Positions 11,579 through 26,431 of a DNA stretch of 42,992 nucleotides are shown here, piece by piece (positions within the stretch are counted from its first letter, which is position 1; each line of letters begins with the position of its first letter). This DNA is from Spartobacteria bacterium (GTDB lineage Bacteria; Verrucomicrobiota; Kiritimatiellia; CAIQIC01; Lenti-01). The stretch is from the NCBI GenBank assembly GCA_009930415.1, contig RZYG01000003.1, positions 1 through 42,992 on the forward strand. Direction: 5' to 3'. The notes beneath the pieces are model-generated. The model saw only the letters and a list, made by a program, of their open reading frames with translations. It made no database searches and was not told the DNA's origin. The position numbers were made by a program, and so were the translations under genes.

Positions 11579-12547
11579 TCAGCCAAGCGGAACGAGATTC
11601 ACCGGTCGGCCTTCGAGATAGGCGCGGAGGTTGTCGGCGGCGATCTGGATCAGGCGCTGGCGCGCGGCGTCGGTCGCCCAGGCCACGTGCGGCGTGACGA
11701 GGCAGCGCGGCGCGGAAAGCAGGGGATTGTCGGGCGCCGGCGGCTCGGTGGACAGCACGTCCACGGCCGCGCCCGCGATCCGGTTTTCGCGCAGGGCCGC
11801 GGCGAGATCGGCCTCGACGACGAGCGGTCCGCGGGACGTATTGATGAGGAACGCAGTCGGTTTCATCTGCGCGAGGCGCCGGGCATTCACGAGACCCGCG
11901 GTGGCGGGCGTGAGGGGGCAGTGCAGGCTGACGACGTCGCTTTCGGCGAAAATCCGGTCGAGATCGGCGTATTCGACGCCCGCGGGCGGCGGCGCCGAAA
12001 CGTCGCGCCGGTTCGCCAGCACGCGCATGCCCAACGCCTGGCAGATGCGGGCCGTGGCCTGGCCGATTTGGCCGAAGCCGACGATGCCGAGCGTCAGTCC
12101 GGCCAGTTCCGTCAGGCGCCCGAGGCGATAGCAATAGTCGGGATTGCGCGCCCAGCCGCCGGCGCGGGCGTCGGCGGAATGCGCGCCGATCTGGTTCGTC
12201 AGTTCCAGCAGGAGCGAAATGGCATGTTGCGCCACGGAAGCGGTGCTGTAGCCCGGAACGTTGGCGACGACCAGCCCGCGCTGCTTCGCGGCGGCCAGAT
12301 CGATGGTGTTGTAGCCGGTGGCCAGGATGCCGACGTACTTCAGGTTCGGCGCCTGCGCGATGGTGTTCGCGTTCAGCACGCCCTTGTTGAGCATGACTGC
12401 GTCGGCGTCGCCGACGCGCGCCAAGATCTCGGCCGGAGCCGTCCGGTCGTGGATGGTGCAATCGGCGAGGGCTTCGACCGGACTCCACGACAAATCGCCG
12501 GGGTTGGCCGTGTAGGCATCCAGGATCACGAGGCGCAAGCGTTTCAT
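11579..12547 (-). CDS. D-2-hydroxyacid dehydrogenase (glycerate dehydrogenase/hydroxypyruvate reductase-like)
   Basis: 'LTLGIVGFGQIGQATARICQALGM', 'INTSRGPLVVEADLAAAL', 'TPHVAWATDAARQRL'. Confidence 0.92.
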   Translation of the reverse strand: MKRLRLVILDAYTANPGDLSWSPVEALADCTIHDRTAPAEILARVGDADAVMLNKGVLNANTIAQAPNLKYVGILATGYNTIDLAAAKQRGLVVANVPGYSTASVAQHAISLLLELTNQIGAHSADARAGGWARNPDYCYRLGRLTELAGLTLGIVGFGQIGQATARICQALGMRVLANRRDVSAPPPAGVEYADLDRIFAESDVVSLHCPLTPATAGLVNARRLAQMKPTAFLINTSRGPLVVEADLAAALRENRIAGAAVDVLSTEPPAPDNPLLSAPRCLVTPHVAWATDAARQRLIQIAADNLRAYLEGRPVNLVPLG

Positions 12548-12600
12548 GGCCCTGAATCTAGGCAACCGGCGAAGGGGATTCAAGCTCGATGCCGGATTGC

Positions 12601-13062
12601 GACCCCCACGGGCTTTGGACAACCTGTTTCACCCACGCCGCAAGGGCGTGGGGGTCATGGGTCGGAGACCCCCACGAGTAGGCATTCCGTGGACAACCTG
12701 TTTCACCCACGCCGCAAGGGCGTGGGGGTCATGGATCGGAGACCCCCACGAGTAGGCATTCCGTGGACAACTTGTTTCACCCACGCCGCAAGGGCGTGGG
12801 GGTCATGGATCGGAGACCCCCACAAGTAGGCATTCCGTGGACAACCTGTTTCACCCACGCCGCAAGGGCGTGGGGGTCATGGGTCGGAGACCCCCACGAG
12901 TAGGCATTCCGTGGACAACTTGTTTCACCCACGCCGCAAGGGCGTGGGGGTCCATGGATCGGAGACCCCCACAAGTAGGCATTCCGTGGACAACTTGTTT
13001 CACCCACGCCGCAAGGGCGTGGGGGTCATGGGTCGGAGACCCCCACGGGCTTGCCCCGTGGG
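12601..13062. repeat. Tandem array of six 74-bp units (one 75 bp) with two nested, mutually exclusive palindromes
   Basis: Unit GGACAAC(C/T)TGTTTCACCCACGCCGCAAGGGCGTGGGGGTCATGG(G/A)TCGGAGACCCCCAC(G/A)AGTAGGCATTCCGT starts at 12617, 12691, 12765, 12839, 12913, 12988; GACCCCCACGGGCTT bounds it on both sides (12601 and 13038). Confidence 0.97.
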
Positions 13063-13132
13063 TGAATGAGGTCTGTTCGGACAGGTTGGACGTTGACAAA
13101 TCCGCCGCTAGGGGATATTTCCTCACCCCGTT

Positions 13133-14224
13133 ATGGCTCGTGAGGTTCAGATTTCATTGGGCGACCGGTCGTACCCGATCGCCGTGGGTTCCGGCGTCCT
13201 GGCGCGGCTGCCGGCCGCGCTGCGGGGGCTGCGCGGGTTGGTCGTGACGGATGCCCACGTGGCGGCCTGCCACGGGGCCCGGGCCATGGATTTGCTGGGC
13301 GCGGGGTGGGGCCAGATCGTTTTGCCGCCCGGGGAGGCCACCAAGTCGGCGGCCGTCTGGGCGGATCTGCTGGAGCAAGTCGCCGCCGCCAAGCTAGATC
13401 GCCAAGGCGTGCTCGTGGCCCTGGGCGGGGGCGTGGTGGGCGATTTGGCCGGATTTGCCGCCGCGTCCTACATGCGGGGCATCCGCTTCGTGCAGGTTCC
13501 GACCAGCCTGCTGGCCATGGTCGATAGCTCCGTCGGCGGCAAGACGGGCATCAATCTGGCGGCCGGCAAGAATCTGGTCGGGGCTTTCCACCAGCCGATC
13601 GGAGTCTTCGCCGATACGGACGTGCTGGCGACCTTGCCGCCGCGGGAATTCGCCGCGGGCATGGCCGAGGTGGTCAAATACGGCGTGGCGCTGGATGCGG
13701 AGTTCTTCGGCTGGCTGGAGCAAAACGCCGCGGCCATCCAGGCGCGCGAACCGGCCGCGCTGGAACGGATGGTCGCCCGCTGCTGCGAGCTCAAGGCCGA
13801 CGTCGTCTCGCGCGACGAGCGCGAAGGCGGCCTGCGCGCCGTCTTGAATTTCGGCCACACGCTGGGCCACGCCATCGAGAAAGTCGCGGGCTTCGGAACC
13901 GTGCTGCACGGCGAGGCCGTCGCGTTGGGCATGCCCTTCGCGCTGGCCTGGTCCAGCGCGGCCAAGGGCTTCGATCCCAAGGACGCCGGCCGCGCGGTGA
14001 ACTTGCTGGACCGGTTTGGATTGAATATCGCCGCGCTGAAACCCAAGAATTTGGATTGGCGCGCGCTGCGCGACGCGATGGGGCGGGACAAGAAGGCGCA
14101 GAGCGGGGCGGTGCGCTTCGTGCTGTGCGACCGGCTGGGCCATTGCGGGTTGCCGGAAGAAATTCCGGCCGCGGACCTGGACGAGTTGCTGAAAGGATGG
14201 TGCCGCGATGTCGTCCGTGAATGA
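13133..14224 (+). CDS. aroB: 3-dehydroquinate synthase
   Basis: 'LGGGVVGDLAGFAAASYMRGIRFVQVPTSLLAMVDSSVGGKTGIN', 'NFGHTLGHAIE', 'LHGEAVALGM'. Confidence 0.96.
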   Translation: MAREVQISLGDRSYPIAVGSGVLARLPAALRGLRGLVVTDAHVAACHGARAMDLLGAGWGQIVLPPGEATKSAAVWADLLEQVAAAKLDRQGVLVALGGGVVGDLAGFAAASYMRGIRFVQVPTSLLAMVDSSVGGKTGINLAAGKNLVGAFHQPIGVFADTDVLATLPPREFAAGMAEVVKYGVALDAEFFGWLEQNAAAIQAREPAALERMVARCCELKADVVSRDEREGGLRAVLNFGHTLGHAIEKVAGFGTVLHGEAVALGMPFALAWSSAAKGFDPKDAGRAVNLLDRFGLNIAALKPKNLDWRALRDAMGRDKKAQSGAVRFVLCDRLGHCGLPEEIPAADLDELLKGWCRDVVRE

Positions 14225-23915: not shown

Positions 23916-25465
23916 CGCCCGACCATTCCACGCCGCTTTTCTGGGACCGGATGCCGCAAGTTTCCGCCTGCCGCGAGGGGGTCCACCTCGTCTTGTTCGA
24001 TCCCGATTGCGCGCGCGAAAAAGTCGTCAACCGCGCCGGTGCCGCCGTCTGGGAGGCCATGAATGGGGCGGCGCGGACGGAAGACCTCGCCGCGGCGTTG
24101 GCACGGCACTTCGACATCGCGCCGACGGACGAACTCAGCGCCGATGCCTGCGCGTTCGCGGAGGAACTGTTGCGCGACGGTTTTGCCAAGGCCATGCCCG
24201 CGCCGCGGGCAACGCCGCGAACGGCGGAGAACTATTCCTGGCTCCACGAGGCCCCGCGCAGTTTCGATTTGTCCCTGACCGGCCGTTGCAACCTGCGTTG
24301 CGCCTACTGCTTCTACGCCGACGAAATGGCCGGGCGCCGCGATTTGCCGGCGGAACGCTGGCTGGCTTTTTTCCGCGAACTGGACGGCTTGGCCGTGCGC
24401 AGCCTGACGCTCAGCGGCGGCGAACTCTTCATGCGGCCGGATCTGTGGGAGTTGCTCGACGGAATCGTGGACGCGCGCATGCGCTATACGATCCTGACCA
24501 ACGGGACGCTGCTGACGGAAGACGTCCTCGCGCAGCTGGATCAGGCGCATCGGCGGCGGCGGTTGACCATGGTCCAGGTGTCCATCGACGGTTCTTGCGC
24601 GGAAATCCACGATGCGTCGCGCGGCAAAGGGAGTTTCGACAAGGCCATTCGCGGCTTGCGTCTGCTGAAAGCGGCGGGCTTCCCCGCGACGGCCCGCGTC
24701 ACGGTCAACCGGCACAACGTCGGCGATCTGGAAAACGTGTTCCGGCTGCTGCTGGACGACGTCGGTTTGGCGCGGGTCGGCACGAACGACGCGATGCCGA
24801 TGGGCACCGGCTGCGCGCGGCGGGAAGACATCGTCCTCTTGCCCGAGCAGCGGCCGGAGGCGATGCGGACGCTCGTGGAACTGGAGCGGCGCTATCCCGG
24901 CCGCATCCAGGCCTCCGCGGGATCGCTGGCCCTGTGGCACATGTTCCGGGAGATGGAAGAAGCGAAGGCCACCGGAAAGAAAACCCGGCGCTGGAAAATG
25001 GGCAGCCTCTCGTCCTGCGGCTGCATGTTCGCGAAGCTGGCGGTGCACCACGACGGGATGATCGTGCCGTGCAACATGCTGGCCGCCGCCGCATTGGGCA
25101 CCATCGGCGAGACGTCGATCCGCCGCATCTGGCAGGACCATCCGCTGCTGAAGGAAATGCGCGGGCGCGGCGCGATCCCGATGGACCAGGTGCCCGGCTG
25201 CGCCGGTTGCGAGTGGGGGCCGTACTGCAGCGGCGGCTGCCCCGCGGCCGAATACACGCGGACCGGCGAGATGAACGTGGCGAATCCGGAGTGCTGTTAT
25301 CGCAAGTTTCTTCAGGAGACAGGAGACAGGGGACAGGAGGCAGTCGGGCAAAAGAGTCAGGGGGCAGGAGACAGGGGACAGGGAACGGGAGGCAGTCGGG
25401 CAAAAGAGACAGGAGACAGGGGACAGGAGACAGTGGGAGGAGTAGACAATGGCGCAGACGGTTAA
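23912..25465 (+). CDS. Radical SAM/SPASM protein with N-terminal PqqD-like domain (ScmE-like)
   Basis: ATGA overlap with CapD-like gene; 'DLSLTGRCNLRCAYCFYADEM', 'LTLSGGELFMRPDLWELLDGIV', SPASM 'CGCMFAKLAVHHDGMIVPCNML...CAGCEWGPYCSGGCPAAEYTRTGE'; last ~48 aa encoded by repeat DNA. Confidence 0.9.
   Translation: MTPDHSTPLFWDRMPQVSACREGVHLVLFDPDCAREKVVNRAGAAVWEAMNGAARTEDLAAALARHFDIAPTDELSADACAFAEELLRDGFAKAMPAPRATPRTAENYSWLHEAPRSFDLSLTGRCNLRCAYCFYADEMAGRRDLPAERWLAFFRELDGLAVRSLTLSGGELFMRPDLWELLDGIVDARMRYTILTNGTLLTEDVLAQLDQAHRRRRLTMVQVSIDGSCAEIHDASRGKGSFDKAIRGLRLLKAAGFPATARVTVNRHNVGDLENVFRLLLDDVGLARVGTNDAMPMGTGCARREDIVLLPEQRPEAMRTLVELERRYPGRIQASAGSLALWHMFREMEEAKATGKKTRRWKMGSLSSCGCMFAKLAVHHDGMIVPCNMLAAAALGTIGETSIRRIWQDHPLLKEMRGRGAIPMDQVPGCAGCEWGPYCSGGCPAAEYTRTGEMNVANPECCYRKFLQETGDRGQEAVGQKSQGAGDRGQGTGGSRAKETGDRGQETVGGVDNGADG
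25313..25440. repeat. Left GACAGG-type low-complexity repeat block (includes a 52-bp internal duplication of GGCAGTCGGGCAAAAGAG context)
   Basis: caggagacaggagacaggggacaggaggcagtcgggca...; inverted relative to 25828-25883. Confidence 0.95.
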
Positions 25466-25820: not shown

Positions 25821-26431
25821 CAACTGACCCCGATCCCCTGCCTCCTGCCTCCTGTCCCCTGTCCCCTGCCTCCTGTTCCCTGCAGTACGCGCTGCGTGCG
25901 GACGTCGCCATCGAGGATTTCGGCGAGCGGGCGCTGGTGTTGCGATGCGACGCGCTGGAATTGCGCGAAGTCAACGCCGGCGGGCGGAAGATCCTGGAAC
26001 GGATTGACGGGACGCGGTCGGTGCAGGATATTGCCGGAAACGTGGGGCTGGCGGCGGAGATCGTCGACAGCGCGTTGCGGAAGATGGAACGGCAGGGGAT
26101 CGTGCGGCGGCTGGTGGCGCTGAAGAAAGAAAGGCCCGAGACGATGAGCGAGGCGAAATTCATGGCGGATCCCGACGTGTCGTTCCGGCCGGAAGACGAC
26201 GACGGAGGCATTCTCTACAACGCGGAAACCGATGTGCTGGAGGTCGTCAACCCGACGGCGGCCGAAATCTGGAAATTCCTCGCGACGCCGCGCACGCCAG
26301 CCGAGGTGGTCGCACATCTGCTCGCGGTCTGCGACGGCGCGCTCCCGGAGCAGGTCGAGCGGGACGTGGGGGATTTCCTGGAATCGATGCGGAGCAAGGG
26401 ATTCATCGGCACGGTCGCGGAGCCGGCATGA
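25817..26431 (+). CDS. Tandem PqqD-domain protein (two PqqD-like units)
   Basis: 'ALRADVAIEDFGERALVLRCDALELREVNAGGRKILERIDGTRSVQDIA' and 'VSFRPEDDDGGILYNAETDVLEVVNPTAAEIWKFLATPRTPAEVVAHLL'; N-terminus encoded by repeat DNA, so the start is uncertain. Confidence 0.82.
   Translation: MTTDPDPLPPASCPLSPASCSLQYALRADVAIEDFGERALVLRCDALELREVNAGGRKILERIDGTRSVQDIAGNVGLAAEIVDSALRKMERQGIVRRLVALKKERPETMSEAKFMADPDVSFRPEDDDGGILYNAETDVLEVVNPTAAEIWKFLATPRTPAEVVAHLLAVCDGALPEQVERDVGDFLESMRSKGFIGTVAEPA
25828..25883. repeat. Right inverted copy of the GACAGG-type repeat
   Basis: cccctgcctcctgcctcctgtcccctgtcccctgcctcctgttccctg. Confidence 0.92.

Follow-up and report, generated by a model that had tools for sequence, protein, structure and literature searches.

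A tandem array of inverted REP pairs beside aroB in a PVC-group bacterium and the apparently fused Y1-like transposases whose genes are flanked by the same REPs

Described REP systems and the present array

The basic BIME module has been described as an inverted REP lying between two REPs in direct orientation (Nunvar et al., PMC2817692), and BIME-2 or tandem REPIN clusters, in which inverted REP pairs and their spacers follow one another head to tail, have been reported in E. coli, Pseudomonas and Stenotrophomonas (PMC2817692, PMC3116915). The array described here, which lies upstream of aroB in a window of 42,992 nt (the whole stretch of DNA that was analysed), has the layout inverted REP - [REP - inverted REP]n, the same as in that BIME module (PMC2817692). 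It shares with the BIME-2 clusters the head-to-tail arrangement, the intergenic placement and the direct REPs as bounds, and one array of the same genome also adjoins a RAYT gene, but it differs from them in the sequence and feet of its REPs, in its PVC-group, probably Verrucomicrobiota-type, host and in the decay of the second REP in five of six units. Tandem REPIN/BIME clusters being already known, the array is ordinary in kind. REP/RAYT systems have been little described in the bacterial group of its host.

In canonical REP/RAYT systems (TnpA-REP, class 2 of Quentin et al. 2018), an HuH/Y1 gene has REPs on both sides and many more elsewhere, as is the case here. On the other hand, the present system has no GT[AG]G foot and a fused two-half protein in which the Tyr motif stands before HuH, and its RAYTs score far below the cut-off of NCBIfam REP_Tyr_transpos (13.9 and 17.3 versus 80 bits; P0001 had no reported match). 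Planctomycetes among the hosts, the class-1-like Tyr...Gln signature and the atypical high-copy REP-like hairpins are common to TnpA-Y1 class 3 (PMC6006769) and to the system studied here, whereas the foot of class 3 is given as CnGA, and fused halves with a Tyr before HuH are not mentioned in PMC6006769. Of the groups described so far, class 3 of Quentin et al. comes closest, and the present RAYT may overlap with it.

The IS200/IS605 transposases IS608 and ISDra2 have the same fold as this RAYT, with HuH and Tyr each supplied by a different half, but they are homodimers of short chains with two sites, whereas the RAYT bears its catalytic motifs only once in its one chain. In the literature examined, no description of a fused two-half RAYT with Tyr before HuH was found. 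This design, encoded outside the window, is the least ordinary part of the system and looks like a single-chain fusion of two Y1 halves.

Structure of the array

The tandem array extends over positions 12616-13047 without an assigned strand (TRF: 74 bp x 5.8 copies, 96% matches, score 799; the other arrays in the window score far lower). The six-unit 74-bp repeat claimed by the sequence-only reading is real, with units starting at 12616, 12690, 12764, 12838, 12912 and 12987 (spacing 74, 74, 74, 74 and 75), although this copy number comes from a fragmented assembly (471 contigs) and its exact value could be off. Each unit is composed of a REP, a spacer and an inverted REP, in the + strand order TGGACAACYTGT, REP (CACCCACGCC-GCAAG-GGCGTGGGGGTC plus a TT foot), ATGGRTCGGA and inverted REP. 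The six REPs are located on the + strand at 12628-12656, 12702-12730, 12776-12804, 12850-12878, 12924-12952 and 12999-13027, and each of them scores 49.9 bits with the covariance model R1.

The inverted REP, on the - strand, is intact at the right end only, where the copy at 13038-13066 (R1, 51.4 bits) closes the array and forms one long REPIN hairpin with the sixth REP. At the left end it is cut to GACCCCCACGGGCTT (12601-12615, - strand), the same 15 bases with which the intact copy at 13038 begins, and the array is accordingly edged by a half REP at 12601 and by a full REP reaching 13066. The 15-bp direct repeats that had been seen to bound the array are these two occurrences of GACCCCCACGGGCTT, at 12601 and 13038, present at both edges because both ends are REPs, while the further hairpin that had been placed about 70 bp before aroB ends at 13066, 66 bp 5' of the aroB ATG (13133). 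In the five inner positions (the first at 12667-12696, - strand, the other four at about 12741, 12815, 12889 and 12964) the inverted REP is decayed and has a different core, AGTAGGCATTC, which occurs five times, in this array only.

At unit positions 9/46/61, units 1 to 6 read CGG, CAG, TAA, CGG, TAA and TGG. The co-segregation of variants proposed from the letters of the window holds for units 1 and 4, which are identical, and for units 3 and 5, which differ by an extra 1-bp insertion in unit 5, and these pairs match the two proposed haplotypes; it fails for units 2 and 6, which are mixed, and therefore growth by multi-unit duplication is weakly supported. A CRISPR, already discounted in that reading, is ruled out, since the entire 74-bp unit repeats and there are no unique spacers between the repeats.

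Each unit contains two stems, CCCACGCC-GCAAG-GGCGTGGG and GTGGGGGTC...GACCCCCAC, which have GTGGGGG in common and so compete, as had been noticed from the sequence; they correspond to the two forms that a REPIN can take, either two small hairpins or one long hairpin. When folded as DNA, the terminal unit prefers the long hairpin (-28.8 kcal/mol, z -6.3) and an inner unit the small hairpins; a single REP reaches z -4.2, so that both the terminal unit and the REP fold better than chance. The array thus consists, like REPINs and BIMEs, of an inverted REP pair able to form one hairpin within a tandem module, with the inverted partner decayed in five units.

A dispersed REP family

Comparison of the array with its own genome by BLAST (3.1 Mb, 471 contigs) returned 37 places. 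The REP itself is 29 nt long, with an 8-bp stem and the loop RCAAG, which agrees with the short palindromes of 20-40 bp with a conserved stem that define such elements. From this genome and its relatives, 37 distinct 29-mers were gathered by means of a pattern in which the feet are fixed; they align gap-free, with constant 5' TTCACC, constant 3' GGGGTC and variable arms. The feet are TTCA and GGTC (GACC on the opposite strand) in nearly all 37 variants, unlike the GT[AG]G tetranucleotide at the 5' foot of GTAG-type REPs. Across the 8-pair stem 97.3% of the cells are paired, a percentage favoured by the way in which the set was gathered, as variants were listed at 6 or more stem pairs. The stem also shows two-sided changes in six of the eight pairs and double changes in 60 cells, versus a mean of 20 after shuffling; no shuffle out of 500 equalled it in cells paired or in covariation, and slid controls collapse. 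The abundance of double changes is less easily put down to this way of collecting.

A covariance model, used because a loose text pattern gave mostly chance matches, found 126 matches in the genome at E <= 1e-3 and 94 at 1e-7. These high-copy elements are mainly intergenic, as 85 of 93 REPs (91%, counted over about 50 loci with a simple codon-usage gene finder) fell between genes, versus a non-coding share of 18%.

A REP/BIME-like element was one of the roles envisaged in the sequence-only reading, together with ways to check it, and those that were applied support it: the genome-wide count gave the 37 BLAST places and the 126 covariance-model matches, the scoring of REPs in 56 genomes showed that their presence tracks that of the RAYT, and the search for a RAYT yielded two IS200-like transposases with the same REPs on both flanks. 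The repeat, isolated at first sight, is thereby placed in a covarying REP family that has a named partner enzyme.

The spacing of inverted REP pairs was also recorded at the loci of the array's own genome, being 31-43 bp in all 13 pairs of inverted-then-direct order and 9-33 bp in six of the nine pairs of direct-then-inverted order, two classes that hint at two module types.

The partner transposase

A profile search placed PF01797 (Y1_Tnp) at eight places in the genome. Two of the proteins, encoded on contigs C463 and C119, are 263 and 255 aa long, 69% identical and above the PF01797 cut-off, and both genes are flanked on either side by REPs of the array's family; on C119 a 40-bp REP tandem array adjoins the gene. 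Homologues were found in Kiritimatiellae, Lentisphaerae, Planctomycetes and one Armatimonadetes MAG, flanked in nearly every case, by inspection, by hairpins with similar loops and lineage-specific stems. Over the 56 genomes, with a RAYT called at protein E <= 1e-10 and REPs at 3 or more matches with E <= 1e-7, the association of REPs and RAYT gave a table of 9/1/4/42 (Fisher p 9e-7, kinship ignored). In two of the genomes, G004 and G009, the RAYT gene is split over two reading frames and 12 and 37 REPs, respectively, are still present; these split genes beside surviving REPs (L122/L129 on G004:C66 and L120/L128 on G009:C48) are possibly decaying systems or sequencing errors.

Residues Y119, Q123, H210 and H212 are invariant in 16 RAYT homologues, so that both HuH and Tyr are present. 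Canonical RAYTs have one core domain in which the Tyr comes after HuH; here the Tyr lies in the N-half and HuH in the C-half, and the Tyr motif stands before HuH in this RAYT family (L030 on C463, L028/L126 on C119, and L032-L048). In the AlphaFold model (mean pLDDT 81.7, pTM 0.81) the protein is predicted to consist of two beta-alpha-beta-beta-alpha-beta units in succession, separated by a helix of low confidence (114-125) on which Y119 lies. Foldseek gave IS200/IS605 transposases as best neighbours in the PDB (2ec2, 2vic and 2xm3, prob 1.00) and no meaningful match among viral models. Compared with a canonical Y1 protein encoded on C462, the N-half matches through to the Tyr (E 2.3e-5; GYLRK with GYMRK), with HuH replaced by Q-I-Q, and the C-half matches with HuH included but stops before the Tyr helix (E 8e-12); the two halves match each other weakly in a plain profile comparison (E 0.01).

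The simplest reading is that the RAYT may have arisen by duplication of a Y1 domain and become a pseudo-dimer in a single chain, with one composite site. This site would resemble one of the two trans sites of the IS608 dimer and be assembled within one chain, although a dimer of fused chains may be an alternative and the invariant Y248 or Y255 may have a catalytic role. There is an even chance that such an asymmetric pseudo-dimer acts on this lineage's REPs; after tandem duplication of a Y1 domain, its N-half would have lost HuH (now x-u-Q) and kept the Tyr, and its C-half would have kept HuH and lost the Tyr helix. A one-site enzyme of this type might favour local, one-ended amplification, and with it tandem arrays, over clean transposition. 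The motif-swapped fusion poses the question of whether one active site is enough and whether it biases the system towards tandem arrays.

The canonical single-domain Y1 gene mentioned above (C462:20974-21588; L024 1474-2088) is adjoined by hairpins of its own (ATCCCACGGGCTTGCCCCGTGG), which are different and lack the TTCACC/GGGGTC feet, and it is probably part of a second REP/RAYT system of this genome.

Growth of the array in place

The core AGTAGGCATTC of the inner inverted REPs was absent from the rest of the genome in a search with a 21-base pattern that allowed 3 mismatches, and therefore the array was not put together from copies that arrived separately but stems from a single module, which diverged before being multiplied in situ. 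Tandem growth is a habit of this REP family, as 11 other REP loci in the genome contain tandem arrays, whose periods range between 33 and 214 bp.

The array is very probably a tandem REPIN/BIME cluster of a high-copy REP family mobilised by the RAYT of the lineage. The RAYT would bind the single-stranded REP hairpin, nick beside it and so spread REPs; a module would have landed at, or been carried to, the junction between the dehydrogenase and aroB genes, its second REP would have decayed, and the module would then have been copied head to tail in place by means of its directly repeated outer REPs, either through nicks made by the RAYT together with rolling-circle or slipped synthesis, or through unequal recombination. 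The resulting array is probably near-neutral for the host. Against this explanation as a whole stand the feet, which are TTCA/GGTC and not GT[AG]G, the fact that the tandem step could come from slippage alone, and the fragmented assembly.

Hairpin-rich direct repeats are prone to slippage, and it is quite possible, if somewhat doubtful, that the RAYT made the REPs and that the array then expanded without it, by slippage or unequal crossing-over. Such passive growth agrees with units that are 96% alike, one of them with a 1-bp insertion, and with the private core, which shows local copying; it agrees less well with the overlap of 12 of 21 tandem arrays (the window array included) with a REP, a proportion far above expectation for REPs that make up 1.8% of bases, albeit at loci picked around REPs. 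This overlap is not decisive against slippage, because any repeat could seed it.

The dehydrogenase/aroB junction

The left neighbour of the array encodes a D-isomer specific 2-hydroxyacid dehydrogenase (11579-12547, - strand; PF02826 E 6e-58, PF00389 E 2e-28) and the right neighbour is aroB, for 3-dehydroquinate synthase (13133-14224, + strand; PF01761 and PF24621 E 1e-46). Relatives have aroD immediately 5' of aroB, and their dehydrogenase gene is divergent from an RCC1-repeat-like gene; in the array's genome, aroD adjoins the RCC1-repeat-like gene on C326 (L215 about 1947-2168) and the dehydrogenase gene adjoins aroB (window 12548-13132). This exchange of neighbours is a reciprocal rearrangement private to this genome, and the REP array occupies the dehydrogenase/aroB junction. 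Neither the reciprocal junction on C326 nor the corresponding sites of relatives contain a REP, which leaves REP-to-REP recombination unsupported as the cause of the rearrangement; the module may have caused, sealed or later entered the junction. Since the array sits at a rearrangement junction that is specific to this species, one may ask whether REPs play a part in reshuffling the genome.

Both the start region of the dehydrogenase gene (GCTTGAAT...) and the block upstream of aroB, TTGACA...GGGGATATTTCC, are kept. The latter (TTGACA...GGGGATATTTCCTCACCCCGTT, 13092-13132, + strand) also stands before aroB in relatives (L054, L056, L059, L060, L062 and L064) and is not invaded by the array; its conservation is claimed and its function as a promoter is not, because a consensus scan does not recognise it as one. 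As the array fills a divergent intergenic region and spares both conserved blocks, and as BIME-2 binds gyrase in E. coli (PMC2817692), it might be regarded as a bidirectional insulator or supercoiling buffer between divergent promoters, maintained by selection. This is very unlikely, as the array is absent at aroB and at the dehydrogenase gene in all relatives inspected, and hence not conserved, and as divergent contexts account for only 7 of about 53 REP locus/context entries; the spared blocks fit a neutral insertion equally well.

It is also highly improbable that the junction is an assembly artefact, in which the repeat would have caused the contigs with the dehydrogenase gene and aroB to be joined falsely. 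The 471 contigs, the dispersed repeat exactly at the join and the synteny unlike that of relatives would be expected of such an error, but the units carry distinguishing variants and the reciprocal aroD/RCC1-repeat junction on C326 was also assembled, without a REP, so an artefact would need two matching errors. A structured non-coding RNA, another role envisaged at first, is scarcely credible despite the stable stems, since the only Rfam match, RAGATH-31, is weak (23.2 bits, a third of the gathering score of 71.8, with no family near its own), REP copies occur on both strands and in varied contexts, and a dispersed DNA element accounts for the conserved pairing.

A phage origin was rejected on the basis of 0 DNA matches in 50,697 phage records, and the consensus scan, which also misses the conserved block upstream of aroB, found 0 promoters or terminators among the hairpins. 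Elsewhere in the window, two tandem repeats of the CAGGAGA and CCTGCCT types lie at 25313-25433 and 25834-25883, about 400 bp apart, each looking like a rough reverse complement of the other.
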